Source: a virus
Virus record (IMG/VR): IMGVR_UViG_3300033153_001808
Span: 1 to 61,947 of that record
Reading direction: 5' to 3' (one strand)
Length of the DNA: 61,947 bases
In this document: positions 10,153-56,357 of the stretch, piece after piece
Layout: every line of letters starts with the position of its first letter
Position numbering within the stretch: position 1 is the first letter of the stretch
Translations under genes and position numbers: made by a program
The notes under the pieces: generated by a model
The model's database searches: none
What the model was told of the DNA's origin: nothing
Seen by the model: only the letters and a program-made list of their open reading frames with translations

Positions 10153-10313
10153 AAGATATTTTTAGTACTACAAAACTAACATCGGACCAGAAGTTGAGAT
10201 TAATGACACAGGCAATTAATTATGTACATATTCGACTTGGGTATAATGAAAAGCCAGTGTTGTCTGAGGTGTATAAAGAAATGTTTGAACTTATTACGGA
10301 GGACAATAAGTGA
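10149..10313 (+). CDS. Small helical protein
   Basis: This 54-residue protein, probably three helices (SDQKLRLMTQAINYVHIRL), lies between the 3D-domain gene and the ParB-methyltransferase. ATGA and GTGA overlaps join it to both, so the three are co-translated. Function unknown. Confidence 0.6.
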   Translation: MKDIFSTTKLTSDQKLRLMTQAINYVHIRLGYNEKPVLSEVYKEMFELITEDNK

Positions 10314-19290: not shown

Positions 19291-19658
19291 ACACATCAAT
19301 AGATTGGGAATGGTTGGTAGAGGGCTATAACTCTACATACTCCACGACCTACAAGGACGAGACAGAACTCCTGCTCTCCATAGGTCCTAAGTTCTCACCT
19401 CGCAACCTAGCACTCCAGCTCGGAGTCTCACACACAACAATCTACTACAGACTAGACAAGCACCGCATACCAAGATCCCATACAAGAGGCGGTGCCAACA
19501 ACAAAGGCAGGAAAGAAAGGGAGTTCCTTTCGATCCCACCTGATGATATGTGCCAATTTACAGTCCCGCAAATCGCACTCAAGTTATCCATACACAAAGA
19601 CTATTGCTACCAACTAGTACGAAAACACAAAAGAAGATTCAAAAGCCTCCTATCTTAA
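19287..19658 (+). CDS. Helix-turn-helix DNA-binding protein
   Basis: This 123-residue protein carries two helix-turn-helix segments: NLALQLGVSHTTIYYRLDKH near 46-66 and PQIALKLSIHKDYCYQLVRK near 92-113. It probably binds DNA and may regulate the switch to late genes. ATGA couples it to the HNH gene. It ends against the late operon; the two stop codons overlap tail to tail. Confidence 0.65.
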   Translation: MNTSIDWEWLVEGYNSTYSTTYKDETELLLSIGPKFSPRNLALQLGVSHTTIYYRLDKHRIPRSHTRGGANNKGRKEREFLSIPPDDMCQFTVPQIALKLSIHKDYCYQLVRKHKRRFKSLLS

Positions 19659-22277
19659 CCCTGGTTCTTTTCTGTGTATGAACATCTCCAACTCGCTGTC
19701 TTTATCCTCCATCCGCCGCCTGACATCTGCGGGAACTTTGTTTCTCCACTTCCATTCCTCGATCTGTTCCTCAGTAGGCAAATCCAACCCTTGTTCATGT
19801 GCAATTCGTGCCGCCTCCGGTTCATTCCCCTCAACATACAACTGAAAGATCTTATCCTTCCATTCCCTGTGTGCCATCTTCGCGGATCGCCTGACTGAAT
19901 AATCCAAGAACCCTTTACTAGATGCCGCAGTTTTAGGACCAATAAACTCACTAACCGCTTCCCAGGGTTTTAAGTCCAGTGTCCTCTCCCCCTTCTCAGT
20001 GAACATAGGAACCTTATCACCTGATCTCTCTTGCATACCTTTAATAAATTTCTCCCCCTTAGTCCACATCACAGGAGTAATAGCCTTAACTGCTTCTTTA
20101 AGCCCCTCGCCTTTTTCAAGTCCCTTAGCCCAAGCATACGCAGACGTAGCACTAGGTCCAAGACCAGTAGGTAGTAAACCCCCACCACCAATACCTAATT
20201 TAGTATGCCTAATAGCATCCTTCCATTCACCTTCTTTAACATCACTAAGAACCTTTACCAATTCACCGTAATTCATACCAAAACCAAGAGCGTTTGACAG
20301 ATCAATACCCAAAAACTTCTCAAGTGTCATATTCCCGCCCTCTGCCATAGCCAGGAGTTTGACCAACTTATACACCCCGTTCGGTCCTTCCTTAGCTAGA
20401 TTCATCATGAACTCAACTTGCTTAATAGGATAAGACCAGAACTGAAACGCAAGCCTCCCTACAGGACTAGCCAATGCTCTAGGCATACCTATTTTACCAT
20501 ACCTAAACTGTGTCTTATGTACTATATCTATACCATATTGTATTGCATCTTGTTCCTCAAGTCCCTTACGTTTTGCCTTCAAATACCCAGACAAAAAAGA
20601 ATGTTTCCTGTTTCCTAACTCGACCTTAGTAAACATAAACCCAACTGCCTGTCTGAGTTTCTCCATTCGTTTAGAAACCGCACCTTCCATCAATACAGTA
20701 GGAACCTCCTCGGCAAGTCCAGTTGCAGCAAACATCTCCTTGCCTTTAGGAGTCCAGGCCATCTCATAACCTTTTAACGAGTCCTGAAATCCAACCTCTG
20801 CTATTGTGTTTATTCTCTGTGTGAAGTTAGTAATAGCACTCCTGGGATTCAACCCAAGTGCCCGCATCCACTGGAAACTGGCAATCGAAGCAGACAACTC
20901 AGAAGCCTTCGGTCCAACTCCGGCCCAGTTTTTTATGAACCAACTAGCATAGTCTCGCCAACCAGGATCGACTTTATTGTATAAATCCTTAGCTAACTTA
21001 AGTGCAGGATCACCATAGAACTTCCTAGAAAAGCCAAACAAATATGTCTGATATGCTTTCACTGCATCGAATGAATATCCTTGTGCGCCTTTTCTGGACA
21101 TGAGGAATCTGAACTTAAACTGATCGGGCAGGGAATCATAGGTAATCAATCTCCCGCCTTTTAGGTTGTTTATACTAGTCCTCAAGGTCTGTAACTTCTT
21201 ATTAAGATTAGTAACTTTCTTCTGGTTTGTCGTTACACGTAACTTCTCTTCAATCTTCTTAGCATCAAACTCAAACCTAGCCATCAGTTCATCTCTGTCA
21301 AATATCCTAGGTAAGTAATGCTTGACTTTCCTTCTCAATATAGTATACGCTTCTTTATCACCGGGACTCAGTCTATTCAACCACTCTTGGTGTCGAAGTG
21401 CACGTTTAGCTTTCTCATATGTTTTATACTTCTTCAAGTCCTTGCCAGCTAAACTACCCACCTTCCTACCTGCTAATACAGAAGTCCTTAAACTCTCTAC
21501 ATAGCTATATAACTGTGCACGATTTTTTGTCAAGTCCCGCACTTTTGTCATGGGTTTATACTTCTTGCTCACGATTCTGGACAATTTATTATACGAATCA
21601 GTACTATCAGCAGCAGCTAGACCAAACTTCTTGTACAGATAATCAAACTGTCCTTGCAAGAACTCATACAACTTAAGCTCACCTTTCTTGAGTTGCTCCG
21701 GTGGAAGTTTAGCTTCCAAGGCCCGACCTACTCGGCGGGAACTCTCACTGTCCATCTTAATCTTGCCTTGAGCTATTCGGAACTTACTAACCTGATTAAC
21801 CAAAAACCTATTCTTAGCCTCAGACATTCTACCTAACACAGACACGATCTCACTCAATGACCCACTCTTCTCCAACTTCGCCGCCTCAGCAGGTGAGTGA
21901 AACCATCCCCTCAACCTCTTAAACTTCCCAGGAGCATCCTTTAGTGCGCCACTAGGCAACTCACTTGCAGCCTTAAATCCCTCGCCTGATTCAGTAGTCT
22001 TGGGCATCTGGGCAGTTAGTTTACTAGTAGCTTTGAGTCCTTGAACTGCCTTCTGCATACCCTTTGAGATCTTCGGAGCCACAGACAACCCCGCAAGAGA
22101 CTCCCACATGACCTGTTCTAGTTCTTCCTCACTCAGTGCAGATCGCTTTTTCAACTCATCAATATCCACAGTACGGCCAAGCCTGGCACCGAGGTCTTTG
22201 AGTAGATCGAAGACTCCATAACTTCGGATACGCTTCAAAAGTGCGGGATCTTTAATTACCTTAACTTGTTGGGGCAT
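19650..22277 (-). CDS. Large virion protein, candidate ejection protein
   Basis: This 875-residue protein is the last gene of the late operon. The first 450 residues are charged and helical (lengthy Lys-rich coils). The middle (SIASFQWMRALGLNPRSAIT, then VGRLAFQFWSYPIKQ) has the look of large phage internal proteins with membrane-active helices. A glycine-rich hinge (LGIGGGGLLPTGLG) precedes the tail. I infer an internal or ejected virion protein from size and position; no enzyme motif is visible. The start ATG overlaps the previous gene's stop. Confidence 0.55.
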   Translation of the reverse strand: MPQQVKVIKDPALLKRIRSYGVFDLLKDLGARLGRTVDIDELKKRSALSEEELEQVMWESLAGLSVAPKISKGMQKAVQGLKATSKLTAQMPKTTESGEGFKAASELPSGALKDAPGKFKRLRGWFHSPAEAAKLEKSGSLSEIVSVLGRMSEAKNRFLVNQVSKFRIAQGKIKMDSESSRRVGRALEAKLPPEQLKKGELKLYEFLQGQFDYLYKKFGLAAADSTDSYNKLSRIVSKKYKPMTKVRDLTKNRAQLYSYVESLRTSVLAGRKVGSLAGKDLKKYKTYEKAKRALRHQEWLNRLSPGDKEAYTILRRKVKHYLPRIFDRDELMARFEFDAKKIEEKLRVTTNQKKVTNLNKKLQTLRTSINNLKGGRLITYDSLPDQFKFRFLMSRKGAQGYSFDAVKAYQTYLFGFSRKFYGDPALKLAKDLYNKVDPGWRDYASWFIKNWAGVGPKASELSASIASFQWMRALGLNPRSAITNFTQRINTIAEVGFQDSLKGYEMAWTPKGKEMFAATGLAEEVPTVLMEGAVSKRMEKLRQAVGFMFTKVELGNRKHSFLSGYLKAKRKGLEEQDAIQYGIDIVHKTQFRYGKIGMPRALASPVGRLAFQFWSYPIKQVEFMMNLAKEGPNGVYKLVKLLAMAEGGNMTLEKFLGIDLSNALGFGMNYGELVKVLSDVKEGEWKDAIRHTKLGIGGGGLLPTGLGPSATSAYAWAKGLEKGEGLKEAVKAITPVMWTKGEKFIKGMQERSGDKVPMFTEKGERTLDLKPWEAVSEFIGPKTAASSKGFLDYSVRRSAKMAHREWKDKIFQLYVEGNEPEAARIAHEQGLDLPTEEQIEEWKWRNKVPADVRRRMEDKDSELEMFIHRKEPGLR

Positions 22278-29194: not shown

Positions 29195-30454
29195 TTAGTT
29201 CAATATATTTGCATCTTCTAGTCTGTCTTCTAGTTCTTTAAGTCTTTCATGAAGCTGTATTATATAAAGAGCTTGTTCTTCTGATTTTATGATTAACTCC
29301 TGTGCGGCTTTTCCAAGACTCATCTTGTCTTGATTTCTATTTACAGTCATACCAGGAAGTTGAGTATTAGCGGCTATGTAATTACTCATCTCATTTATTG
29401 ACATCAAGTCATAATCATCCTCAAACACAAAATCAGTACAAGTCACTATACCACAACTTGATACAATCTGTCCTTTCACAGTCAAATCACAAGAACCGTC
29501 AGCAGCTATCGCTATATCCATCATTTCATTAGTACCAGTACCAAAATTATTTGCACATCTAAACCAATATAGTCGACTTCCAACTAGATAATTCAATACA
29601 CAACGACTTCCAGACGAACTGTTTGTATCTTCTATATAAACACCAGGAGTAGCGGCATGACCTACTCTAAACTGCCCAGCTGTTGAAATCTGTACATTAT
29701 TAGCTCCACTATAATACCCACGTGAAGTTATATTACCCACCATGTCTATAGCAAAAGCAGAGTGCCCACTGGTATCAGTTAAGTTATTCCTGTCCTCAAT
29801 AGTAAAAGCCTTTCTAGTAGTATGTGTCAATGAATCAAAAGGAAAAACTCTAATCCCCTCAGAATCAGCATCAGTACCTACACCGGCAGCTATAGCTATA
29901 CCACCACCATGAGTTGCGTTCCAGTTAGTTGCAAGCAATCCAGTTTGAGCACCATGTACGTCACATTCAATAGCAACACCATGATTTCTGGCTATAGGAG
30001 TGTTTGAAAGTGTTGTACCAGTTATAGTTCTTAACGCCGATGGAACCTCACTACTATACACAGGATCGTATTTCTGAAAGGTTGCCGCGTTTCCATAACC
30101 CCATTCGGACGAGACTATTCCAGAAGAGTCTCCGCCGTTATCAACATCACTGTAGTGGAAGATTATTATTCCAGAGCTTATTTGTTTAGTATAAGGAGGC
30201 ACATCAGGGTCAACATTATAAGTGACGACCGAATTAACATTCTCAATCCATAAAGAAGTCTTCACACAATTAGTAAGTTTATTAAGAATAAAGGCTGTAT
30301 GAGAATAAAAACCCGAGTAAGATGGACTAAAAGAACCATTAGCATAACCTCCACCACTACTAGGTTCAATGATTATGTAACTAGGATTATGAGCAGTAGC
30401 ATCAATAGCCAACTCAGCATCTTTATTAATTATTAAAGGATCACCAGTTGCCAT
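29195..30454 (-). CDS. Tail fibre protein with C-terminal coiled coil
   Basis: This 419-residue protein starts MATGDPLIINKDAELAID, then a long Ser/Asn-rich beta region, a GYYSGANNVQISTAGQFRVG receptor-like repeat, and a helical C-terminus (SLGKAAQELIIKSEEQALYI, then a heptad coiled coil). The final part resembles the S74-type intramolecular chaperone region, although the catalytic Ser-Lys pair was not clearly found. TAATG couples it to the preceding gene. Confidence 0.65.
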   Translation of the reverse strand: MATGDPLIINKDAELAIDATAHNPSYIIIEPSSGGGYANGSFSPSYSGFYSHTAFILNKLTNCVKTSLWIENVNSVVTYNVDPDVPPYTKQISSGIIIFHYSDVDNGGDSSGIVSSEWGYGNAATFQKYDPVYSSEVPSALRTITGTTLSNTPIARNHGVAIECDVHGAQTGLLATNWNATHGGGIAIAAGVGTDADSEGIRVFPFDSLTHTTRKAFTIEDRNNLTDTSGHSAFAIDMVGNITSRGYYSGANNVQISTAGQFRVGHAATPGVYIEDTNSSSGSRCVLNYLVGSRLYWFRCANNFGTGTNEMMDIAIAADGSCDLTVKGQIVSSCGIVTCTDFVFEDDYDLMSINEMSNYIAANTQLPGMTVNRNQDKMSLGKAAQELIIKSEEQALYIIQLHERLKELEDRLEDANILN

Positions 30455-31356
30455 TACCACACCTCCGTATCATGGTCTATATTAAACACATTACTATCCC
30501 AAGGACCTCTAGTTTCTAACCAAGGTCTTATTCGTCTAGGCAAGGAACTCGTACTAAGGTCTTCGATAATCATCTGTCTCATTAAGCCCTGGAACTCTGT
30601 CTGTGCATCCCTGGCCATCCCAATAAATGCGGGATTTTGCGTGACACCAAATGCTTGTCTATAGCAGTCCCACAAAGCTCCTGCTTCCAGAATCTCAGAT
30701 CTAAACACCGGCTCATCTGTATCAGCACTCAGATCACTAACCTTCTTCTTATAAAACACAGTAATTGCATAATCAGTATCCCCGGCGGGCCAGATCTCAA
30801 GACTTATGATCCCCAAAGCACTACTTTTACTAAACACACTCCAATAAAGTGGAGGTCCAGTAGACTCTCTCTCAGGATCTACAGTATTAAAATACTCTTT
30901 GGGTCTCTGTCCCATCTCTGTCTGGTACACAACCATCCGCACTTCGGCCACATCTCCAACCGCCGGACTGTATACCTGTGGCCAATGACTAAAATCCTGG
31001 GCAGTAGCATCATCTTCTGCATAGGAAGTCTCTAGTGTGAGCTGAGTAGTACTGTCCACAGAACTTATTACATAAGGCTGTGACTCACTTCCTATCCTGA
31101 ACAGATGCGCCGCAATTCCACTCCAGCTCGTACTAGTTCCAGTCACCGTGGTAGATCCCTGAGTCACAGCACAGCTCTCACTGCTTGTATTACTCACCTG
31201 CTCTTCAATTCTAATAACTGTTGAGTCATTCAAGAAAGCCCAGTCTTCTACACCTAAGATCTGTTGATACCTCACATTGATCCGCTGCTTTATGACCGGG
31301 ATACTAAGCATAGGTACAAATTGCCGGATATTTAAAGCCATTAACCTGAAGTTCAT
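30454..31356 (-). CDS. Adaptor-like virion protein with Ig-like insert
   Basis: This 300-residue protein has helical ends (VIKQRINVRYQQILGVEDW; EILEAGALWDCYRQAFG) and a beta-rich middle (AVTQGSTTVTGTSTSWSG). This is the same helix-beta-helix plan as the adaptor-like genes further on. GGAGAAG precedes the ATG. A dyad element lies directly upstream. Confidence 0.6.
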   Translation of the reverse strand: MNFRLMALNIRQFVPMLSIPVIKQRINVRYQQILGVEDWAFLNDSTVIRIEEQVSNTSSESCAVTQGSTTVTGTSTSWSGIAAHLFRIGSESQPYVISSVDSTTQLTLETSYAEDDATAQDFSHWPQVYSPAVGDVAEVRMVVYQTEMGQRPKEYFNTVDPERESTGPPLYWSVFSKSSALGIISLEIWPAGDTDYAITVFYKKKVSDLSADTDEPVFRSEILEAGALWDCYRQAFGVTQNPAFIGMARDAQTEFQGLMRQMIIEDLSTSSLPRRIRPWLETRGPWDSNVFNIDHDTEVW

Positions 31357-31394: not shown

Positions 31395-34300
31395 TTACAC
31401 ATTGTCAGCCCTACTTAGTTCTACCCAACCTCCACTAATACCCATTAACATAACAGTATCATAAGCACTATTAAAGGTAAAATTAGCCTGACACTGTATA
31501 TTACCCCCATCAGTCATGGTAAGACTAGACGTAGACCGTATGACCAAGAGATGTCCATCAGGCCCAGTTGATCCGTCTATAGTAGCACTATTAAAATTAG
31601 TACTCCCAGTTAGTAATATATTATGAGCATTACCTGTAATCACAAGTGTTCCAGCACTAGCTACACTACTTACCGCACCAAATTCTCCACCACCTCCAAC
31701 AGGGCTTGTTCCACTTGTACCCGCAGTACCACTTGTTCCATCTCCGCTTGTACCGCTTGTTCCGCCACCGCTAGTTCCACTCGTACCAACACCACTTGTC
31801 CCTGCCGTCCCACTTGTTCCTGCACTACCACTCGTTCCTGAACTCCCACTTGTACCGCTACTTCCACTCGTACCAGACGAACCGCTCGTTCCACTAGTAC
31901 CGGAAGTTCCACTCGAACCCGAAGTAATTCCAGAAGCACTTGTTCCGCTAGTACCCGAACTCCCGCTGGTTCCGCTTGTACCACTCGTTCCAGACGAGCC
32001 TGAACTTCCAGAAGTTCCACTTGTTCCACTACTACCTGATGTAATACCAGCAGCACTTGTGCCACTTGTACCTGAACTTCCGCTAGTCCCGCTTGTACCA
32101 CTAATTCCACTACTCCCACTTGTCCCAGATGTACCAGAAGTTCCCTGTATACCACCACCACTTGCAATCGCATAGTAACCAGCAACCGCACTCGGAAATG
32201 TCAACACAACATCATTAACCCCAGTAAATTCTATATTACTAGGTATAATAGTATTATAAGAACTATCTGTTACCTCTACTACAACAGGCTGGTAGCCTAG
32301 ATTATGATTTATATTCCAAGTAGTTGCTGAACCATTAGTACCGTAGAACGCCCCGGCAATAGCCTGTGTACCAGAAGTACCAGCAGTACCACTCGTGCCA
32401 GAACTACCACTTGTTCCAGCAGTACCAGAAGTCCCGCTACTACCAGAAGTACCACTACTTCCTGATGTACCTGATGTACCACTGCTACCAGAAGTAATAC
32501 CAGAAGCACTTGTTCCAGAGGTCCCACTACTTCCACTAGTTCCACTCATACCACTTGTACCTGAACTCCCGCTTGTGCCTGATGTTCCACTTGATCCAGA
32601 ACTTCCTGATGTACCACTCGTACCGCTAGATCCCGATGTACCGCTAGTTCCACTAGATCCACTAGTACCAGATCCACTCGTACCAGACGTCCCTGATCCA
32701 CTCGTACCACTTGAACCAGCCGTTCCGCTTGTTCCAGAACTCCCACTAGTACCAGACGTACCGCTACTTCCTGCTGTACCAGACGTTCCACTAGAACCGG
32801 AGGTCCCACTAGATCCGCTAGTACCTGAGGTCCCCGAACTTCCACTACTACCAGAAGTTCCACTCGATCCACTAGAACCAGAGGTAACACCAACACCACT
32901 CGTTCCTGAGGTTCCGCTAGTACCACTGGTGCCTCCACCACTTGCCATAGCATAATAGCCACTAACAGCACTTGGAAAGGTTAGAGTAACTGTATCTATA
33001 TCGTCAAAACTTATATTACTAGGTATAATAGTATTATAACTATCGTCAGTTACTTCCACCACAACAGGTTTATAACCTAGACTATGAACTATTGTCCAGC
33101 TAGTACTTGCAGCTCCTTGAGTTCCATAAAATCCTCCAGCCACCGCTTGGGTTCCACTTGTTCCGGCGGTTCCACTTGTACCAGAACTACCAGAAGTACC
33201 ACTAGAGCCAGACGTACCAGAAGTCCCACTAGAACCTGATGTACCACTACTACCACTTGTTCCAGAAGTACCAGATGAACCGCTAGAACCAGAAGTACCA
33301 CTCGTTCCACTGCTTCCAGATGTACCGCTTGTACCGGAACTTCCACTCGTACCGCTAGTCCCACTAGAACCAGAACTCCCACTTGAACCAGAGGTCCCAC
33401 TAGTACCTGAACTACCACTTGTCCCACTGGTACCTGAACTCCCTGATGTTCCACTACTTCCAGAAGTACCTGAGGTCCCACTTGATCCAGAAGTCCCTGA
33501 GGAACCGCTTGTACCACTTGAGCCAGATGTTCCACTAGAACCAGAGGTTCCGCTTGTGCCACTACTACCAGACGTGATTCCGGTGGCTGATGTACCAGAG
33601 GTTCCAGAACTTCCACTTGTTCCTGAGGTTCCAGCTGTTCCTGAGGTTCCACTAGATCCACTTGTTCCTGCTGTACCACTGGTTCCACTACTACCAGATG
33701 TACCAGATGTTCCACTACTCCCAGACGTACCGCTGGTTCCACTCGAACCAGACGTTCCGCTACTCCCAGATGTACCAGAAGTACCTGAACTGCCTGACGT
33801 ACCTGAAGTACCGCTAGATCCGGCAGTTCCTGATGTACCACTAGATCCGGCTGTGCCTGAGGTACCAGAACTCCCACTCGTACCACTTGATCCACTAGTC
33901 CCGCTTGATCCGCTGGTGCCACTAGTTCCACTCGATCCTGATGTACCAGACGAACCAGAAGAGCCAGAACTTACACCAACACCAGAGGTACCAGACGTTC
34001 CTGATGTACCAGAACTTCCAGAAGTCCCTGATGTACCCGATGTACCACTAGTTCCACTAGTTCCTGATGATCCTGACGAGCCACTAGAACCAGAACTTAC
34101 ACCCGAGCCAGAGGTACCAGATGTACCAGCTGTACCGGAAGTACCACTAGATCCACTACTCCCACTTGACCCACTAGTACCTGCTGTTCCAGACGAACCA
34201 CTTGTTCCTGATGTACCTGAACTACCGGATGTTCCACTTGTACCACTAGTGCCTATAGCACTTGTACCAGATGTCCCACTAGTACCACCCGTACCAGAAG

Positions 34301-34571
34301 TGACACCGACCCCACTAGTACCACTTGTACCTGATGTTCCACCAGTACCAGAAGTCGATACCACACTATCAGCATACGCCTTAATAGCTCCTTCTGTAAC
34401 CAAGCTAGTATTACTAGTACCTAAACTAGTGCTAGAAGAAATCTCACTAATGGCAACAGAAGTAGCATCATCTTCAAATGTACCCCCATCCAATATAACC
34501 TTTCCACCAGCAGAATAGGTATGTTCAGCGGTTATAGTGGCATCAATAGTAGTCGTTAATGTCGTAGGCAT
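31395..34571 (-). CDS. Giant Gly-Thr-Ser repeat fibre (collagen-like)
   Basis: The 1058 residues have an N-terminal 77-residue head (ends TEGAIKAYADSVVSTSG) and then three blocks of Gly-Xaa-Yaa triplets, about 390, 190 and 155 residues. Xaa is Thr, Ser or Ala and Yaa is nearly always Ser. The blocks are separated by two copies of a 65-residue beta domain (LGYKPVVVEVTDDSYNTIIP in the first, LGYQPVVVEVTDSSYNTIIP in the second). A C-terminal 95-residue beta domain (GHLLVIRSTSSLTMTDGG) may bind the receptor or cap the trimer. There is no Pro in the triplets, unlike normal collagen. About two thirds of the residues in the blocks are Ser or Thr, ideal for O-glycosylation. The glycosyltransferase megagene ends 12 bases upstream. 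Confidence 0.88.
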   Translation of the reverse strand: MPTTLTTTIDATITAEHTYSAGGKVILDGGTFEDDATSVAISEISSSTSLGTSNTSLVTEGAIKAYADSVVSTSGTGGTSGTSGTSGVGVTSGTGGTSGTSGTSAIGTSGTSGTSGSSGTSGTSGSSGTAGTSGSSGSSGSSGTSGTAGTSGTSGSGVSSGSSGSSGSSGTSGTSGTSGTSGTSGSSGTSGTSGTSGVGVSSGSSGSSGTSGSSGTSGTSGSSGTSGSSGTSGSSGTSGTAGSSGTSGTAGSSGTSGTSGSSGTSGTSGSSGTSGSSGTSGTSGSSGTSGTSGSSGTSGTAGTSGSSGTSGTAGTSGTSGSSGTSGTSATGITSGSSGTSGTSGSSGTSGSSGTSGSSGTSGSSGTSGTSGSSGTSGSSGTSGTSGSSGTSGTSGSSGSSGSSGTSGTSGSSGTSGTSGSSGTSGTSGSSGSSGTSGTSGSSGTSGSSGTSGTSGSSGTSGSSGTSGTAGTSGTQAVAGGFYGTQGAASTSWTIVHSLGYKPVVVEVTDDSYNTIIPSNISFDDIDTVTLTFPSAVSGYYAMASGGGTSGTSGTSGTSGVGVTSGSSGSSGTSGSSGSSGTSGTSGSSGTSGSSGTSGTAGSSGTSGTSGSSGTSGTAGSSGTSGSGTSGTSGSGTSGSSGTSGTSGSSGTSGTSGSSGSSGTSGTSGSSGTSGMSGTSGSSGTSGTSASGITSGSSGTSGTSGSSGTSGSSGTSGTAGTSGSSGTSGTAGTSGTQAIAGAFYGTNGSATTWNINHNLGYQPVVVEVTDSSYNTIIPSNIEFTGVNDVVLTFPSAVAGYYAIASGGGIQGTSGTSGTSGSSGISGTSGTSGSSGTSGTSAAGITSGSSGTSGTSGSSGSSGTSGTSGTSGSSGTSGTSASGITSGSSGTSGTSGTSGSSGTSGSSGTSGSSGTSGSAGTSGTAGTSGVGTSGTSGGGTSGTSGDGTSGTAGTSGTSPVGGGGEFGAVSSVASAGTLVITGNAHNILLTGSTNFNSATIDGSTGPDGHLLVIRSTSSLTMTDGGNIQCQANFTFNSAYDTVMLMGISGGWVELSRADNV
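31690..34350 (-). repeat. Nine-base coding repeats of the fibre gene
   Basis: The stretch encodes hundreds of GTS/GSS/GAS triplets, interrupted at about 32938-33165 and 32155-32365 by the two globular domains. Synonymous codons vary from triplet to triplet, so the protein repeat is kept while the DNA has drifted. This suggests selection on the protein and an old expansion, and not a recent slip. Confidence 0.8.
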
Positions 34572-34583
34572 TTTGTTACCCCG

Positions 34584-37500
34584 TTAAACTATGTTTGTAA
34601 GAATCTCACCAACAGCCTTTATTACAGTCTCAGGTTTGATGTTTTTACTGCACTCAAAATCCTTATTCTTAGGACACCAAGCCCAATTATCACGAGCAAA
34701 TGTCACACTACTATCATTAAAACACCCATGACAAACATCTTTGTTTATAATCCTATGATTACCAGATTGAAATTCACAAAACGGTTCACTGAAACCAGAG
34801 ACCATAACGACTGGCGTGTTGACCGCCCAACTTAACCAACTAAGACCAGAACCTACACCTAAAAACATTTTTGCTTTGGCTAACACATCTGCTACTTGAG
34901 TAATAGGTGAAGTATGTATTGGTGTGACATTCTTTAACTCTGTTCCTTCTTTGCCTATGGTTAAAACCTCTAAACCCTGCGAGGTTATATAATCAACCAC
35001 CTCTTGCCATCCACCTACATAGTTCCAATACTTAGCTTGCATAGTAGAATGTTCCGACAAGCATACATAATCTTTAGGTAATTTATGTTGATACTCACTC
35101 ATGGAAATTTTAGGTTTTAGTTCTTTATACTCCAATCCTAACATATCTGTGCCTACTTGCTGTAAAGGCACCGAGTTCCACGGATGTTTATTCTTATCAC
35201 TATCTCCATCAAAGACACCAACACCAAAAGACGCATATATATTAGGGGCAACGTCGCCAACCTTGGTGAAGTCTATATTAGGATACACAGATTCAAACAA
35301 CTCATTCCACCAAGTAGCTGTTACAATACTACATTTATGTTCTTTTGCAAATGCTTCAAGATAAGGAAACCAAGCAATAGTATCACCTAAAGACTTACTA
35401 TCCATCCAAATTAAGACACGTTGTCCTATTGGATCGAATCTATGTGAAACTAATGTTTTATCAGTCTTGGTGTCTGTTACTCTAACTAGCCAATTACTGC
35501 AATACTTCCGACCAGGTCTAGCCCATTCACCACTACCTAAGATAGTACCATACATAGACCTACCAATATCTGAGTCAACAAAGTCAACCTTGTATTGACC
35601 ACCATTTGGACCTTGAACTTCACAATACGGACCATCTACAAAATGTACAGTTACATCTACATTATCGCTTCTACATAAATACAACATCTGTATGTGGTCA
35701 TTATCACCAAGGTATAATGTATAAGCAGAAAATCCGGCATTTGTTAGTCTGGTCAATAACTCAGTTCTCAATTCTGCTTTGAAGTCAAACAACATATTAT
35801 GATATTCTATACATATTTTTTGTACCTTAGCAAGATTATCGTCTGACAAACCAGCAAATAAATCCAACTCCGAACCTTCTATATCTACCTTTAAGTAATT
35901 AATCACATCCAGACCAAGCTCTCCAATCATGTGATCTAATGTGACTAGTTCTATTTGAACTGACTCACCTGTTTTAGTGTTATTTATATTATTATCTTTT
36001 ACACTATGTCCGCCCTCACAAGAGTGGATAAAAAGCTCTGAAATTCCGGCTTTGTTGGATATACCCAACTCTGATTTCCATGACTCCACATTCTTCTCCA
36101 AAGCACTATAATTATCTGGCTCTGGTTCAAAAGAATATACCTCACTAGCACCCATTTCTTTTGCGTATCGTGCAAATACACCTATATTACCACCACAATC
36201 TACTACAACATCCCCAGGTTCTATTTTACATCTACCATGTTCGTATGTCTTATCAACAAAGATCTCATGATATACACCACTAAAAGTATCAATTCCATCG
36301 ACAGATATATCAACAGGCTCAGTAGAATTTGGCAAATAATACTTAGTTCTTTCTAACTCAACCTTTTCAGTAGGCACTAAATACCTCTCGTACATTTCCT
36401 TTAATACCTTAGGATCATGTTGACAGTGCATTAACCACACACCAGACTTTTCTGGAATGTGTATATGTTCTGATAACCCACCTGCCAACACTGGCATGTA
36501 TTCACTGTAACTTTCTTGCCACTCTGCTGTGAAGAACTTATCAAAATACTTAGGCCAATATATGTCATAGATATGAACTCCTAATTGTTCTGTGGCTTCA
36601 TACTTCCATAGCATTAAGTTCATAAAAATCTCATCACCTAAAGGGCCGGACTTTTCTACCAACTCCTCAGGGGTAAGTTCATCTTTCCACTTCAGTACAT
36701 CTAACATGAATTGCTTACAGTTCTTATCAAACAAGAACATACAAGCCTGTACCCAAGGAGACATAGACCTCTCAGAGATTCCGAATTTTGTCTTTAGTTC
36801 CTCAAACCCAGGTGCTGGTATACCATTAGTTTGTACAACTACATGGTCATAGATATGCGAGGCAAAAAGCGGGTAATTATTTAACCTACCTACAGAGTCC
36901 CATATCCTGTCTATGCTTTCCGTACAAAAACTATCCCCATCTATCCAAGCATAATGACTACCTTCCACATTCTCTATTGCGTCTAGACCACATAATAATT
37001 TACAAAAATAAGAATCAACTGCTCGACCATCAGGCAGGGTAGCTTTTGAGGTAAAATCAATACGTCTTTTCTGCATACGTGGTAAGTCAAAAGGTATATC
37101 ACAACCAAAACCATAAACCACGATCTGTGCAGTAGAAAATTTCAACAGACTACTAACACAAGTTTCAATCAAAGGCATATAATTTGAATCACCACCAAGA
37201 ACAAATACAGGCTTCAAGGACTTTGCAATAGTAAAACCACCTACAATATCCTCGCAGACGTAGTCCTTTGTTAACATATGAAAGAAGCCAATTTCTGTAT
37301 TGTCAACCAGAGTTAGCTTTCCATCAAGCCATGTTGCGTTATCTTGTGTCTTCTCGTGTTGGAAGTTCTGTCCATTTAGTATTATCTCAAGTTTTACATC
37401 CTCTTCAATAAGTTTATCACTCCACATACTTTCATCAAAGTTAGTGTACTTGTCTGTCTCATCAAGCATGGATTGAAAACCAGGGGTGGAAGCATATAAC

Positions 37501-40500
37501 TCCCGCATCTTGGGTGTGTTATGTACTAGAGTACAAGGCCCGGCAACTCTATAATGCAGTCCGTCTTTGGTTGAACCACCAAAAGTAATCACATCGTAGT
37601 CTTGTTCCATATACTTATTAAAGAATCCATCCAACTTACCCCAAATAACATCAAGATCACAGAAACCCCAATAATCATAATCTTTGAGATACCCATCATA
37701 AATATGTCCATATAAAGGTTTATAATCACACAACTTATACGACACACCTATACGCACTTTATGGTCTATTGTACGACTAGCAAGTTGTTCAAATGATAAT
37801 TTAGTCTGGTCTATAAAACTAACATTCTCTGGATACTCATGTGGAGCCTGTTGATCACTAAATATCAACCAATCAAACTCTGGATTCTCAGCACAAGAAC
37901 ATAAGAACATATAAAACCAATCAGGAAAGGGTCCAAGCCAAGTAACCACAAATGCTGCTTTTTGTTGATTGTTTAAATCATCAACTAATTCGTCCAACAA
38001 TTCCCCGCCATTTCCGTTGCCATGCCACACCAAGGTCTGCTTGTTTACTTCATCTTTGGTTGTATTACCCAGTGTTTGAAACATCTCACAATCTACATCT
38101 CTGATAATCTTATGACCATTAGCCATAAAATATTTAGTCAACAACCACTGATCGTTTCTACCATATAAGCCACCCTCTGTACCTAGTAAAGCCTCTGGTA
38201 GTTTGGTATACTTATCTACCATCGTATTTAGTGCATTATAAATAACACCAGCCGGACCCATATAAGTGCCGGAATTTACATACCTAAACTTCTCCTCTCC
38301 AGGTGGGTAGTTCTCAGCTAGACTCCTATCTGGATACAGATTCTTTTCAGCACCTACAACAATATACGACTCTGGTACTGCTTTCGTGTACACAGACGTG
38401 TTTTTATCTGCTTGTCTGTGATAAGCCTGTATTAACTCAGTCTCATTTCCTAGTAAGTAACTATCAAAACCATCCAAGAATAGTACCAACTGCTTCTTAG
38501 GCAGAGTTGAAACATAATCCCTCATGTGGATGAACTTGGTTATAAAATCTCCCCACTCTACTCCAGCACCCAAGACCTCAAGCTCCATACCTTGTGCTGT
38601 GACAGACTCAACCAACCTATCAAGCCCGGAGTTTGTATGATTAGCGAATGTAACAACCTTTAATAACTTAGCTCCACTATCAGACTCTCTACTAAACGTA
38701 GCCTGTGAAGCAAAATCAAACAAAGGCAAGTCAAACATACGCCTAAAGCAGACCTTATTATTATGAGAAACCGTCAACACTTCACCCTTTTGATACTTAT
38801 TCTGTAGTTCTTCTAATCCAACACTACCAGGCTCAACACTCAACTCTAACCTCTCACCAGAATATTCAACCACACAGTCAAGCCTCTTAGCCCCACGATT
38901 ATCTATACCTATAACCATAGCACCAACATAATTAGCACCTATTGAATAAGTCACATCTACCATAGTATCTACTTCCCGTGCAGACTCAGAACCACCAAAA
39001 GCTCTCCAACGGTCTATAGCTAACCAATCTTTAGGTCTAGTAGTATTAACCTCCACTGCGTCGTATTTTCTAAATGCCTCTAGTAATGTATACTCTAACT
39101 GAGTAGCAACTAATCTACCAACATAATACTCCTCTGGAGTTTTGTACTCACTAAAAACCTCAAGACCTTTTTTGACTGAAAAAGAGAAAACTCCACTCTC
39201 CATTTCTTCATAAGGTACATGATGATTATTTGGTTTGATATAACATAAATCATTTCCAACCACCGGAGCTATGAGTGTATTCAACCACACATCATTATCT
39301 ATGTCCACGTCATATTCTATATAATGAACATAGTCCTTTGATTTCATTATATCTGTATTCAATGCGTTACGTATATTAGTCCATATAGCATAATCATATA
39401 ACCAAGGAGCCTCTGTGTCTACTCTTAAACCCCCCGATTGAATCCATAATCTTGCATCTAGACTAATTTTATAGTAATCTTCTTTATACATAAGTGGATT
39501 ATGAGAATCAAACACATAATAATCCACATACTGCTGTAACCTACTAGGTATTGGTTTATGTGATACTAACATAACATCAAAGCCTAGAGACTTTGCCTTG
39601 ACTACACGTTCATGAAGTAAATCTTCTTGGGCATCAGATACACACCAAGCACCTATAACAACAATATGTTTCTCAGCTAAACTGACTGCCCAACTAGAGT
39701 CTGAATAATGTTTGAGTTTATACTCACCTAAGGTATTGTCAACCGCTGGCCTGACTCCATCTGCGCCGGGATTTACGTTTCTATGAAAATAGTCATGCCC
39801 ACACATAATACCCTTAGGTTTTAGTTTAGGCATCCACGCTAGTATGTCAGCACACACAGCATCATAATCATGTGCAGCGTCCACATAAACTAAGTCCAAC
39901 GAACTGTCTTCAAACCTCTGTGCAGCAGGAACTGATTGACTTCTGATCTTCTCTACGTTTCCAGCTCTATACTGCATCTGCTCAAACCTAGCTTGTGCCA
40001 TCAAGATATTAGTTATGTCTCCATAACAATCCTGCCATTCGTCAACTCCATAAACCTTCTTAGCTCTAGAGGCAAAGACTTCTGTACTAACTCCACCAAA
40101 ACAACCTAATTCTACCATTACGGTGTCTTTAGTAATATAATCATCCGCAAGTTCAAATAGTCCTGCTGTAGTATTCCACGGAACCATCTCTGTTTCAACA
40201 CCACGCCACTTTATTCTAGATTGAGTACGTAGTCTAGTTTCTTTTTCTGTAGTACTCTCGTCAAAATCCCCGAATTTTTTAATCACACTAAAAGACTTCT
40301 CGGCGGCAGATTCCCACGAGAACCTATCTCTCACTTCACACGAAGCGGCAAGAGCTTCTTGTATACGATTTATATCTATCGGATCACGGACTTGATTATA
40401 CAAACTTCGCATTATTTCTCTCAGATGATTGAAGTCTGGCTCTGCCCACATACCAGGAAACTGACTTCCTACCGGATAGGTCTCCTGTGGTGGTTTCATC

Positions 40501-41351
40501 TCTTTAATACGCACTTTATGCACACCCAACAAATCTCCGGCGTATTCTAGTTGTCCACCAAAATCCGAACATATACTTGGTAATCCACACGCTACTGCTT
40601 CTATAAGGGGTAGATTCCAACCCTCGGCACGAGAACAACTCACAAACACATCACTATATTTTAGATAATCTGCATAAGTATTACGTGGAGGGAAATGTAA
40701 AATTTCCAACTTAGGACTCATCAAGCCATGATGTTCTAAGCGTTCTTCTGTAGTCTCAAACCCATCTATAGAGAAACTATTATCTACAGAAATAGCCATA
40801 CCTACATTGGTGTCGCGTTCAAACTCAACCAAAAAAGCCTGGATAATCTCCGTAGTGCTTTTCCTATATTCCCACCTACCAAAAAGCAGAAACCTAAAAT
40901 CATCTGTTCTGCCATTCATAGGTTGGAATAACTCTCCATCAACACCTTCTGGTATAACCTTGACCCGATCTTCTGGGTATCCTTGGTCTATACTACATTG
41001 TCTCTGCCACTCACTAGGAACCCATAATTGGTCATACTCTAACAACCTAGCAAAGAACTCATCTGGTTGACGTGTACTTTCCCATACATTGTAAGCTATT
41101 TTTGGGCTTGGTATATCCTCATAAAAAACCGGGTGACCAGTTACCTCCAAGACAATATGTAAAACATTTGAACCAATTATCCTATTAATCATTTCCTGTT
41201 GTTCATCAGACAACTCAGTCGTATCATCAACTGTTGTACTCACGATACCTACAGGAACAAACTTATTGAGAGCAGTAAAAAACTCTCGCGCATGGTTGGC
41301 ATATCCTGTATGCCCCATGAAACTTGTATGTCCTAACACTAAATCGTACAT
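34584..41351 (-). CDS. Eight-module glycosyltransferase/methyltransferase megaprotein
   Basis: The 2255 residues are an assembly line. (1) 1-365: GT4-type transferase (AYNVWESTRQPDEFF, IPEGVDGELF, FVSCSRAEGWNLPLIEAVAC). (2) 380-555: SAM methyltransferase (VELGCFGG 413-420; YVDAAHDYDA). (3) 560-790: transferase-like region with EYDVDID at 679-685. (4) 895-1110: PLOD-type glycosyltransferase (LFLDGFDS 957-964; YVNSGTYMGP). (5) 1130-1375: DUF6625-like (GFCDLDVIWG). (6) 1378-1655: GT-A-like (YAWIDGDSF). (7) 1680-1895: FkbM methyltransferase (VVDCGGNIGVF, FEPEP, LKVDIEGSE). (8) 1898-2255: TibC/Aah-type O-heptosyltransferase (FVDGPY, WARPGRKY, SLGDTIAWFPY; iron-finger cysteines 2207, 2210, 2226, 2234). 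GGAGG precedes the ATG. It lies 12 bases before the Ser/Thr-rich fibre, its likely substrate (inference). Confidence 0.88.
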   Translation of the reverse strand: MYDLVLGHTSFMGHTGYANHAREFFTALNKFVPVGIVSTTVDDTTELSDEQQEMINRIIGSNVLHIVLEVTGHPVFYEDIPSPKIAYNVWESTRQPDEFFARLLEYDQLWVPSEWQRQCSIDQGYPEDRVKVIPEGVDGELFQPMNGRTDDFRFLLFGRWEYRKSTTEIIQAFLVEFERDTNVGMAISVDNSFSIDGFETTEERLEHHGLMSPKLEILHFPPRNTYADYLKYSDVFVSCSRAEGWNLPLIEAVACGLPSICSDFGGQLEYAGDLLGVHKVRIKEMKPPQETYPVGSQFPGMWAEPDFNHLREIMRSLYNQVRDPIDINRIQEALAASCEVRDRFSWESAAEKSFSVIKKFGDFDESTTEKETRLRTQSRIKWRGVETEMVPWNTTAGLFELADDYITKDTVMVELGCFGGVSTEVFASRAKKVYGVDEWQDCYGDITNILMAQARFEQMQYRAGNVEKIRSQSVPAAQRFEDSSLDLVYVDAAHDYDAVCADILAWMPKLKPKGIMCGHDYFHRNVNPGADGVRPAVDNTLGEYKLKHYSDSSWAVSLAEKHIVVIGAWCVSDAQEDLLHERVVKAKSLGFDVMLVSHKPIPSRLQQYVDYYVFDSHNPLMYKEDYYKISLDARLWIQSGGLRVDTEAPWLYDYAIWTNIRNALNTDIMKSKDYVHYIEYDVDIDNDVWLNTLIAPVVGNDLCYIKPNNHHVPYEEMESGVFSFSVKKGLEVFSEYKTPEEYYVGRLVATQLEYTLLEAFRKYDAVEVNTTRPKDWLAIDRWRAFGGSESAREVDTMVDVTYSIGANYVGAMVIGIDNRGAKRLDCVVEYSGERLELSVEPGSVGLEELQNKYQKGEVLTVSHNNKVCFRRMFDLPLFDFASQATFSRESDSGAKLLKVVTFANHTNSGLDRLVESVTAQGMELEVLGAGVEWGDFITKFIHMRDYVSTLPKKQLVLFLDGFDSYLLGNETELIQAYHRQADKNTSVYTKAVPESYIVVGAEKNLYPDRSLAENYPPGEEKFRYVNSGTYMGPAGVIYNALNTMVDKYTKLPEALLGTEGGLYGRNDQWLLTKYFMANGHKIIRDVDCEMFQTLGNTTKDEVNKQTLVWHGNGNGGELLDELVDDLNNQQKAAFVVTWLGPFPDWFYMFLCSCAENPEFDWLIFSDQQAPHEYPENVSFIDQTKLSFEQLASRTIDHKVRIGVSYKLCDYKPLYGHIYDGYLKDYDYWGFCDLDVIWGKLDGFFNKYMEQDYDVITFGGSTKDGLHYRVAGPCTLVHNTPKMRELYASTPGFQSMLDETDKYTNFDESMWSDKLIEEDVKLEIILNGQNFQHEKTQDNATWLDGKLTLVDNTEIGFFHMLTKDYVCEDIVGGFTIAKSLKPVFVLGGDSNYMPLIETCVSSLLKFSTAQIVVYGFGCDIPFDLPRMQKRRIDFTSKATLPDGRAVDSYFCKLLCGLDAIENVEGSHYAWIDGDSFCTESIDRIWDSVGRLNNYPLFASHIYDHVVVQTNGIPAPGFEELKTKFGISERSMSPWVQACMFLFDKNCKQFMLDVLKWKDELTPEELVEKSGPLGDEIFMNLMLWKYEATEQLGVHIYDIYWPKYFDKFFTAEWQESYSEYMPVLAGGLSEHIHIPEKSGVWLMHCQHDPKVLKEMYERYLVPTEKVELERTKYYLPNSTEPVDISVDGIDTFSGVYHEIFVDKTYEHGRCKIEPGDVVVDCGGNIGVFARYAKEMGASEVYSFEPEPDNYSALEKNVESWKSELGISNKAGISELFIHSCEGGHSVKDNNINNTKTGESVQIELVTLDHMIGELGLDVINYLKVDIEGSELDLFAGLSDDNLAKVQKICIEYHNMLFDFKAELRTELLTRLTNAGFSAYTLYLGDNDHIQMLYLCRSDNVDVTVHFVDGPYCEVQGPNGGQYKVDFVDSDIGRSMYGTILGSGEWARPGRKYCSNWLVRVTDTKTDKTLVSHRFDPIGQRVLIWMDSKSLGDTIAWFPYLEAFAKEHKCSIVTATWWNELFESVYPNIDFTKVGDVAPNIYASFGVGVFDGDSDKNKHPWNSVPLQQVGTDMLGLEYKELKPKISMSEYQHKLPKDYVCLSEHSTMQAKYWNYVGGWQEVVDYITSQGLEVLTIGKEGTELKNVTPIHTSPITQVADVLAKAKMFLGVGSGLSWLSWAVNTPVVMVSGFSEPFCEFQSGNHRIINKDVCHGCFNDSSVTFARDNWAWCPKNKDFECSKNIKPETVIKAVGEILTNIV

Positions 41352-50983: not shown

Positions 50984-51907
50984 TTAACTTACGTTAGAGA
51001 TGTAACCATTCCAACGAGGTGCACTACAGGCCAATAATCCGGCCCAAAGAGCTTGTCTAATCCAAGCATCCTGATTCAAAGGCACCTTTTTGTCGGTCCA
51101 ACTAAAGTTACGTTTCTTATGTACGACCATCTTCCAGAAATCTGTGTTCAGAACATAAATATATCCTGAGTTACAGTAGCTATCCACTACAATAGTGGCG
51201 TTATTGAATTTAATCCCACTAAAGCCAATATTCGCCAGGCCGGGACTATTATCAAGATTTCCCCGCTGTTGTGGTTGCACACGCAACCAGATTTTGTCAT
51301 AGATGTCCTGTGTGGTGATAATCAAATCCGGCTGAATTGCACCATCTGAACAGTCACCATACATACTCTGGAGCATGTCCATGTCAAAGGCTCCACCGGT
51401 TGTGTTCACATTACCCTGCCACCAGGAATAAGTTCCCTTTACGATTTCACCATACGTACCGCTTGTTGCGATAGCAGTGGTGAGTGGAATAATAGCTTTA
51501 GCACCCTGTGAAGCATAAAGTGCCTGACTAAAAGCCCTGCTGAAAGTCTTGGCCGCATTTTCCATTTTGGTTGCCACGATAGACAGAATTTTCTCATCTC
51601 CCTCAACCTTCAGAAGAGTAGTACCATCTATAGTAACATCTACGTATAACTGTTTCCAGTCAAATTTGGCCAGGGTTGTAGTCTCGACAGTATCTATGTT
51701 AAATGTATCAAGACCAGAATACCATCCATTCGGAAGATCCCCATATAAGACCGGAATATCTACCTGCTTACCTGAATCAAACACTACCTTACTTTTACTC
51801 ATCAACTGAGCCATGAGTGGAGTGGAGTAGTAGAACTGATCCATTAAAGTAGGTATATATTTATCCCGAACATGGGCATCAAGTTCGCTATAAGTTAATG
51901 CCGCCAT
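50984..51907 (-). CDS. Major capsid protein
   Basis: This 307-residue protein has a helical start (YSELDAHVRDKYIPTLMDQF), then YSTPLMAQLMSKSKVVFDSG and beta strands with PVLYGDLPNGWYSG. Its centre has a long helix (KMENAAKTFSRAFSQALYAS), and IQPDLIITTQDIYDKIW lies in the second half. The plan is that of the HK97-fold capsids (A and P domains). It directly follows a scaffold gene, lies in the head cluster, and has a normal length. AAGGAGATTG precedes the ATG. Confidence 0.88.
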   Translation of the reverse strand: MAALTYSELDAHVRDKYIPTLMDQFYYSTPLMAQLMSKSKVVFDSGKQVDIPVLYGDLPNGWYSGLDTFNIDTVETTTLAKFDWKQLYVDVTIDGTTLLKVEGDEKILSIVATKMENAAKTFSRAFSQALYASQGAKAIIPLTTAIATSGTYGEIVKGTYSWWQGNVNTTGGAFDMDMLQSMYGDCSDGAIQPDLIITTQDIYDKIWLRVQPQQRGNLDNSPGLANIGFSGIKFNNATIVVDSYCNSGYIYVLNTDFWKMVVHKKRNFSWTDKKVPLNQDAWIRQALWAGLLACSAPRWNGYISNVS

Positions 51908-54581: not shown

Positions 54582-56357
54582 TTATTGTGTTCTCCCCGCT
54601 GGACTAGCGTTTTTTTGTGTAGGAAACTGTGTTCCTCCTGCTCCTGCTGGTGGACCTACTTCTGGCACTTCTTCTGCCTCTCGTTTCTGACTCATCCTAG
54701 CCAAGACAGACCTTCTATGAGGATACTCTATATCTTCCAGAAGTGCGGGATCATCTATAACCTGCATCTCTCGTAACTTCATGGACTCGATTCTCTTTTG
54801 TACTTTTGCAAGTCCAAGACTTGATCCTGGTTCTATTTTGAATCCAACCTTTGTCCAAGCATCATCTTTGCGTTTTGATATAGGTTTTAAGAGTTCGCTA
54901 GTTATTGCTTGCATCGCAGCACTATCTATTCTGGTAGTTTCCTGTAAGACCTCCATGATCTTGTCTGGTTTGTAGAACTGAAAGATTCGAGAGATTAGTT
55001 TTCTACCAACTCGCTCTTGCATAGATTCAACTGCCCTCGCACGTAGGCGTATGAGTGCCTGGGCCATTAACTGCAAAGACTCTATACCTACACCAGAGCT
55101 GACTTGACCTGTTGCGTTTCCTCTCATGACGTCTATCATGCCGGTTATTTTTTCAGAAGCACCTACGAGACCTTGTACAGTCTCACCTACATATGAGGGT
55201 AAAGGAACTCCAGGCTCTCGGCGCAGTTCCCGCCCAGGACGTTTCTTTACATAAGTTCCCGGTGCACTATTTAACCTTGCCCACTCTTCTTTGGTGAGTG
55301 CATCTTGATCTCCAACCCAGATTGCATTACTCATCAGGGCTATGTTTTCCATGACTGTAGCGGTTATCTTGTTTATCAGTTCTTGGGGATTTTTCAATAA
55401 CTCAACATCACCCCAACCCCAAGCTGTGGAGAAATCTGTATGCCATGCAAGTAGATCAACCGGAAATTGACCATCGTTGTAGGGGTTGTCTCCGTCGTCT
55501 GCTATGAGGTCTCCGATCATGATGACTTTTCTGGCTCCGTTCTTAAATCTTAACTTCCCGTCCGTCTTTGATCTGTCTCTGAGCCAGAACTCCCGCACAT
55601 AAATCCGGGGAATTTCAGAACCTTGTTGTGCTTCTGGTCTTGTTTGCAGGATCTTAGACTTGATGGTACCAAAGAATCCCTTACTCTGTTCTCCCTGGAA
55701 GCGCACAAGACCTACGTCTGATTTAAATAGATCAGCTCTTTTGGGGTACATATCCTGGGCTTTACTTAATGGCCACACATCTTCTAGTATAACATACTCA
55801 CCTTCACATAAAAGGTAAGACTTCCTCACCAGAGGATCAAAGTATACTGCTCGTGGATCATAACTAGGTACTCCTATGTCTCCACGCCCACCGTCTCCGT
55901 CTGCATCGAATAAGGTTCCTATAGAGCCTGTCCCAAAGACCTGAGCATTTTCGACTACATCAACCATAGCTTGACTGAATGAACTGCCTTCAAAGATCAC
56001 GCTTATTAGAATATTTAAAATATCCGCAGTATCCTGTAAGGTATCACTCCTGGGCTGAACATCCGGGATTGGTTTGGTATCTGTCAAGAGAGCTGTCTTA
56101 CGTTCTATGTTCTCTATGAGATAATTTATAACCGCACTCACCTTATAAGCAGGTCTACGTGCAGGCCACTGAGCACCACGCAGGAACTGTGTATAAAGGT
56201 CCCAATTTCGGGAGACTTTAGCCTTTGATTGTGAGGCTTCTGTATAGAGATTAAGAAGTTTAATCCTGAACTCAGTCTCAGCAATACGTTCAGCTTCTTT
56301 GGTTAAGATCTGGAGTTTAGCAAAGTCTTCTATTTTTGTAGCTTCTGGTGTGGTCAT
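54582..56357 (-). CDS. Portal protein
   Basis: This 591-residue protein has helical stem regions and a beta-rich wing, as in P22-type portals. The N-terminus (SRNWDLYTQFLRGAQWPARR) with YLIENIERKTALLTDTKPIP is the usual portal start. The DPRAVYFDPLVRKSY strand, HTDFSTAWGWGDVELLKNPQ, and the C-terminal coil (VQKRIESMKLREMQVID) complete the pattern. It forms the dodecameric DNA gate. Length agrees with podovirus portals without a fused domain. Confidence 0.88.
   Translation of the reverse strand: MTTPEATKIEDFAKLQILTKEAERIAETEFRIKLLNLYTEASQSKAKVSRNWDLYTQFLRGAQWPARRPAYKVSAVINYLIENIERKTALLTDTKPIPDVQPRSDTLQDTADILNILISVIFEGSSFSQAMVDVVENAQVFGTGSIGTLFDADGDGGRGDIGVPSYDPRAVYFDPLVRKSYLLCEGEYVILEDVWPLSKAQDMYPKRADLFKSDVGLVRFQGEQSKGFFGTIKSKILQTRPEAQQGSEIPRIYVREFWLRDRSKTDGKLRFKNGARKVIMIGDLIADDGDNPYNDGQFPVDLLAWHTDFSTAWGWGDVELLKNPQELINKITATVMENIALMSNAIWVGDQDALTKEEWARLNSAPGTYVKKRPGRELRREPGVPLPSYVGETVQGLVGASEKITGMIDVMRGNATGQVSSGVGIESLQLMAQALIRLRARAVESMQERVGRKLISRIFQFYKPDKIMEVLQETTRIDSAAMQAITSELLKPISKRKDDAWTKVGFKIEPGSSLGLAKVQKRIESMKLREMQVIDDPALLEDIEYPHRRSVLARMSQKREAEEVPEVGPPAGAGGTQFPTQKNASPAGRTQ

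Follow-up and report, generated by a model that had tools for sequence, protein, structure and literature searches.

A viral genome fragment from IMG/VR encodes, just upstream of a proline-free, collagen-like tail fibre, a 2255-residue polypeptide that ends in a glycosyltransferase module of the TibC family. The best overall explanation of this arrangement, to which we give about two chances in three, is that the phage O-glycosylates Ser and Thr residues of its own fibre. This reading draws on the family and predicted fold of the module, on the recurrence of tibC beside collagen-like repeats in other phages and, most strongly, on minimal two-gene pairs in bacterial chromosomes. The window referred to throughout is the whole stretch that was analysed, i.e. 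positions 1 to 61,947 (61,947 nucleotides) of record IMGVR_UViG_3300033153_001808. Window features are collected in Table 1.

Table 1. Window features that bear on the proposed glycosylation of the fibre; residue numbers refer to the 2255-aa polypeptide.
Feature	Coordinates	Strand	Basis and remarks
Tail fibre / SU10-adaptor-like protein	30454..31356	-	next gene downstream of collagen-like fibre
Collagen-like (GTS/GSS)n tail-fibre protein, 1058 aa, proposed acceptor	31395..34571	-	PF01391 2.5e-69, tail-fibre PHROGs, repeats
Multidomain glycosyl/methyl-transferase ORF (P0001), 2255 aa	34584..41351	-	
TibC-family O-glycosyltransferase module	34584..35660	-	residues 1898-2255: N-terminal beta domain, GT-B catalytic domain, C4 finger
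C4 iron-finger motif	34650..34733	-	Cys2207/2210/2226/2234, aligned to TibC ligands
Catalytic Asp1990 (= TibC Asp110)	35382..35384	-	alignment
FkbM methyltransferase	35727..36209	-	residues 1715-1875; PF05050 6.2e-18, TIGR01444 6.9e-24
Segment with DGD motif, possibly GT-A	36252..37151	-	residues 1401-1700; relatives in TibC loci
DUF6625 domain, possibly GT-A	37338..37952	-	residues 1134-1338; PF20330 5.5e-48
GT_PLOD domain	38052..38666	-	residues 896-1100; PF25342 3.3e-20
GT-A-like nucleotide-sugar fold	39036..39671	-	residues 561-772; AF2 model, no Pfam match; relatives in TibC loci
Methyltransferase (Methyltransf_24)	39789..40115	-	residues 413-521; PF13578 1.8e-18
GT4 glycosyltransferase	40227..41351	-	residues 1-375 (Pfam match 148-273); PF00534 1.9e-11, phrog_2170 1.4e-24
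Major head protein	50984..51907	-	same strand, late-block context
Portal protein	54582..56357	-	same strand, late-block context

A TibC-type module closes the polypeptide

The module comprises the last 358 codons and the stop codon of the large reading frame, and the plus strand over the same interval is interrupted by stops. Against the NCBIfam model TIGR04414 (hepto_Aah_TibC) it scores 265.1 bits (E 8.9e-79; 264.8 bits in a repeat search), which exceeds the curated cut-off of 200 and makes it by sequence a member of that family, and the TibC entry 4RAP of the PDB matches it with E 1.7e-45. The motif resemblance that first drew attention to the module (SLGDTIAWFPY, FVDGPY and WARPGRKY, all present in these 358 residues on the minus strand) is thus not due to chance. 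A structure predicted by AlphaFold from 41 viral sequences (mean pLDDT 91.5, pTM 0.90) contains the N-terminal beta-barrel (strands 2-74) and GT-B fold that are a feature of bacterial autotransporter heptosyltransferases (BAHT; PMC4358343), and its best match among solved structures is TibC (Z 40.4, rmsd 2.1 Å, 352 residues), the GT9 heptosyltransferases coming next at Z 22 and below. PHROGs holds no family for the module. Sequence and model together leave its assignment to the TibC family almost certain, as the initial annotation had proposed.

The same annotation had described a complete four-cysteine iron finger and had named an alignment with TibC as the test that could refute it. The cysteines are found as described, at residues 2207, 2210, 2226 and 2234 with spacing C-x2-C-x15-C-x7-C, and they align with Cys339/342/358/370 of TibC, described as its iron ligands (PMC4358343); the last spacer (x7 in the module, x11 in TibC) is the sole difference in spacing. 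In TibC, Asp110 is given as the base, Thr226, Lys230 and Trp305 as sugar or phosphate contacts and Arg286 as the adenine contact (PMC4358343). The module keeps Asp110 (D1990), Thr226 (T2103), Lys230 (K2107), Trp305 (an aligned Trp) and F368, while Arg286 is replaced by Val and Pro300 by Gly. A residue survey of domains scoring at least 100 bits retained 101 distinct rows of 113, TibC included, after the L109 fragment, partial and duplicate domains and identical sequences were left out. Across the 73 distinct other phage domains, Asp110, Lys230, Trp305 and all four cysteines are retained without exception, the Thr226 position holds Thr in 43 and Ser in the other 30, and Arg286 is Arg in 33. The finger claim stands, and at the level of predicted fold and aligned catalytic residues the module works like a BAHT. 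Because Arg286 is Val, family membership does not settle its donor specificity; the designation O-heptosyltransferase is likely yet unproven for the module.

The fused chain and the neighbouring fibre gene

The fusion to other transferases that had been suspected is borne out by Pfam, which places GT4, GT_PLOD, DUF6625 and two methyltransferase domains on the same chain; it names no hydroxylase domain in the reading frame and gives no match in segment 1401-1700. Segment 561-830 was modelled with AF2 (270 residues, modest confidence at pLDDT 70.4, poor beyond residue 211 of the model), and the best fold matches of its 561-772 portion, mannosylglycerate synthase and KdsB tied at Z 14.4, do not separate glycosyltransferases from nucleotidyltransferases. 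The reading frame shares its strand with the head and tail genes around it, in a genome that looks podovirus-type from its SU10-adaptor-like protein, DNA polymerase, terminase, portal and major head protein. No tRNA genes were found, and a near-DNA search of the locus against phages gave no match. Elsewhere in the window, a ParB_N domain is fused to an N6/N4 DNA methylase (10310-11560, plus strand), and an 875-aa reading frame (19650-22277, minus strand) has weak matches to DarB-like antirestriction PHROGs.

The fibre gene, which the initial annotation had not connected with the module, begins 12 bp past the stop codon of the enzyme, on the same strand. Its product matches the Gly-X-Y repeat model PF01391 with 229 bits (cut-off 27.2), and its Gly-X-Y runs of at least eight triplets amount to 627 residues, of which 393 are Ser or Thr (264 and 129, respectively) and none is Pro or Lys; a tandem-repeat analysis recovered the same repeats and nothing further. 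A Ser/Thr-type Gly-X-Y reading frame occurs within the analysed flanks, many of them short, in 50 of 85 viral loci (the window and L002-L085). In 11 of the 85, a gap of at most 120 bp separates such a fibre gene from tibC, and nine of these have both on the same strand. The collagen-like reading frames near tibC in L035, L043, L049 and L060 are Ser/Thr-poor (shares 0.24-0.33). In one locus (L002:9043-12884), a pair of overlapping tibC paralogues adjoins a repeat protein of the AYAGTATNAGFATNSS type, non-collagen and rich in Ser, Thr and Asn, possibly another class of acceptor.

Association of tibC with collagen-like repeats

The pairing was quantified in 40 tibC-bearing records. Of these, 36 came from a set of 80 IMG/VR loci, picked for contigs of at least 30 kb with most near-copies left out; the remaining four are the window and three phage records. 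PF01391 matches occur in 37 of the 40 (35 over the cut-off), with no match in LR756504, G010 and G029, and in three of 24 terminase-picked control records (two over the cut-off; 24 of 80 loci, contigs of at least 16 kb). The three matching controls are without tibC. A further control, G046, which has tibC and no collagen match, was omitted from the Fisher test, so that the comparison of tibC records with controls taken as 3/23 gives P = 1.9e-10. Proximity points the same way: in 10 of the 12 records of at least 100 kb that hold both, no more than 7.5 kb separates tibC from the nearest collagen match (10/13 if LR756504, excluded for having no collagen match, is counted in), where uniform placement expects 1.7 of 12 (P about 6e-8), a null that is generous because tail genes cluster anyway, with distance thresholds picked after the data were seen and with the collagen position of LR756501 taken from among the matches listed. 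The reverse comparison, made among the matches listed on contigs of at least 30 kb with a Gly-X-Y run of at least 12 in the examined stretch, finds tibC in 20 of 40 records with Ser/Thr-type repeats and in 1 of 24 with proline-type repeats (Fisher 1e-4). It is suggestive only, because it is confounded by GC content, the median being 0.38 in the former and 0.55 in the latter; restricted to GC below 0.45, the counts become 16/36 and 1/7.

Two-gene pairs in bacterial chromosomes

A bacterial clade of the family offers a simpler arrangement. In all five of its loci, from a Polaromonas MAG (L087), Methylomicrobium (L088), Methylobacter (L089) and two Methylococcaceae MAGs (L090, L092), the distance between tibC and a small GTS-repeat gene is 7-109 bp; in L090 the repeats are interrupted and fall under the run threshold, and the gap was taken from coordinates. 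The GTS-repeat proteins are 102-323 aa long and carry an N-terminal signal-like stretch, so that, judged by eye, they are apparently secreted, and the surrounding genes do not look phage-like on visual inspection. No phage tail module accompanies these pairs, which makes them the strongest argument for GTS repeats as the acceptor, and we regard the GTS-repeat fibre as the probable acceptor in the window too. The methanotroph pairs of tibC and a short GTS-repeat protein would then be a compact two-gene system for testing sugar-stabilised, proline-free collagen in E. coli.

Alternative readings

GT4, GT-A-like and FkbM domains are also found in polysaccharide synthesis. The polypeptide might instead act on the host surface, remodelling LPS/O-antigen or capsule, for instance in superinfection exclusion, its adjacency to the fibre gene being that of a usual host-recognition island; that the Pfam family Glyco_transf_9 takes in LPS heptosyltransferases would fit this main rival. 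Glycosyltransferases adjoining pelagimyophage tail fibres have indeed been interpreted in print as modifiers of the host O-chain (PMC7029224). We nevertheless judge host-surface remodelling improbable for the window, because the LPS heptosyltransferase I model reaches 30.6 bits on the module (cut-off 185) against 265 for TIGR04414, a protein O-glycosyltransferase model, because the reading frame is located between head and tail genes, and because the GTS-repeat pairing recurs in bacterial chromosomes whose neighbouring genes appear, by eye, unrelated to phages.

Somewhat less probable again is that the module glycosylates another virion protein, such as a second tail protein or the capsid, with the collagen-like fibre a mere neighbour. 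The three tibC phages that have no collagen match speak for such a substrate, as do the two tibC copies of L002 beside a non-collagen repeat protein and the beta-helix autotransporters given as the known TibC substrates (PMC4358343). Against it stand the collagen enrichment and proximity in the tibC records and the minimal bacterial pairs, in which the shared neighbour is again a GTS-repeat gene.

A third proposal, from the initial annotation, extrapolated from the TibC dodecamer to a very large ring, here one bearing twelve 2255-aa chains, and this we consider very doubtful: the fold similarity, the finger and the N-terminal domain are in its favour, but the thumb beta-hairpin region is cut from 32 residues in TibC to 22 and lacks the hydrophobic F265-V266 tip, which the dodecamer is described as requiring (tip mutants being inactive dimers), the finger serving back-to-back dimers (PMC4358343). 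With Arg286 and the thumb both altered, we do not call the module a dodecameric autotransporter heptosyltransferase.

A proposed route and its sugar donor

If glycosylation of the fibre is the correct reading, the polypeptide would be made late, together with the fibre, and its TibC unit would add the first sugar, perhaps a heptose from the host ADP-heptose pool, on Ser/Thr of the (Gly-Thr/Ser-Ser/Ala)n repeats. The other glycosyltransferase domains could then lengthen the glycan, and the FkbM and Methyltransf_24 domains could methylate it. Because the Gly-X-Y runs are free of Lys, GT_PLOD more likely extends the glycan here than modifies hydroxylysine. The collagen-like fibre, itself free of proline, would thereby become densely glycosylated, and its sugar may stabilise the rod or alter adsorption through the fibre; a stabilising effect of Thr glycosylation on collagen has been reported (Bann 2000, as cited in PMC3368898).

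Clues to the donor come from other tibC loci. In two (L030:9504-10635 and L085:9436-10567), tibC is followed directly by an HldE domain II-like and then a domain I-like gene, with NCBIfam scores, all under the curated cut-offs, of 97.7 and 100.7 bits for domain II and 119.4 and 109.8 bits for domain I, respectively. These split genes, adenylyltransferase-like and kinase-like, are a possible phage ADP-heptose cassette. The 636-kb phage LR756504 (L193) has a stand-alone tibC. Its GmhA, which passes the cut-off with 307.5 bits (L193:10084-10653), is encoded within 27 kb of that gene, and a class 1 fructose bisphosphatase (L193:32853-33875) within about 3 kb. Across the 40 tibC records, TIGR02199 (HldE-II) matches five, none over the cut-off, and TIGR00441 (gmhA) matches LR756504 alone; neither model finds a donor gene in the window. 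A 'cytidylyltransferase like' neighbour of tibC in Microcystis phage Mel-JY01 was considered as an HldE candidate and set aside, as TIGR02199 has no match in that record. Some of these phages may thus feed an ADP-heptose route, which the window does not do. For the window enzyme, the replacement of Arg286 allows another donor, and we put ADP-heptose at slightly under even odds.

Comparison with known systems

With TibC and Aah (BAHT; TIGR04414; PDB 4RAP, 4RB4) the module has in common the whole-length fold, the N-terminal beta domain, the catalytic and contact residues listed above, the four cysteines and F368. It differs in being the C-terminal unit of a far longer chain, in the substitutions at Arg286 and Pro300, in its shorter thumb and in having a collagen-like fibre, not an autotransporter, as its neighbour. 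That a virus glycosylates its own collagen-like protein, as proposed here, has a counterpart in Mimivirus, whose collagen hydroxylase-glucosyltransferase L230 is described as acting on lysine after hydroxylation (PMC9614988). GT_PLOD is a further likeness between the two; in contrast to L230, the window polypeptide has no hydroxylase named by Pfam, and the Gly-X-Y runs beside it offer no lysine. BclA of Bacillus spores is likewise a glycosylated bacterial collagen-like protein (PMC8968730); its sugars are added by other enzymes, none of which is known to us to have a TibC domain. Glycans have also been reported on capsid and tail-tube proteins of mycobacteriophage virions (cited in PMC12619734), at C-termini, unlike those proposed here on a repeat fibre. 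Among the open-licence PMC papers listed, none dealt with phage TibC or with how phage collagen-like fibres are glycosylated, and none linked the two.

The recurrence of the tibC/collagen-like fibre pairing in many phages and some bacteria points to a widespread and, it appears, undescribed means by which such fibres are coated or stiffened with sugar. Were it confirmed, many phage 'AMG' glycosyltransferases, at present interpreted as modifying the host surface, would gain a function, a structurally well-known enzyme family would gain a new class of substrate, and virus-encoded collagen glycosylation would extend to phages. A bolder and rather unlikely generalization is that TibC-type enzymes include a second, wider branch acting not on autotransporters but on proline-free proteins with collagen-like Gly-(Thr/Ser)-(Ser/Thr) repeats, both in phage tails and on bacterial surfaces, in which Ser/Thr heptosylation would replace (hydroxy)proline as the source of rigidity, the window being a case where the whole glycan line is fused into one chain encoded just before its fibre.

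Distribution of TibC domains

The full signature fused to other transferases had seemed unusual for a phage, an impression that the wider survey overturned. An alignment-query scan of IMG/VR matched at least 599 stretches, at least 581 of them encoding a relative; the alignment query was necessary, as a single-protein query of viral sequences gave only one. The 74 distinct viral reading frames, window included, comprise 38 of at least 600 aa and 31 of at most 450 aa, so TibC domains are frequent in phages, fused (about half) or not, and the window polypeptide is the longest of the 74. Four INPHARED records match, including that of the isolate Mel-JY01, and relatives occur in 213 plasmid records. 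Maximum-likelihood analysis of 101 domains places the window in a large group of mostly phage domains (support 99/97), to which the bacterial clade of Methylococcaceae and Polaromonas also belongs. Separately, a Schwartzia MAG (L103:9719-13539) carries three tandem tibC paralogues.
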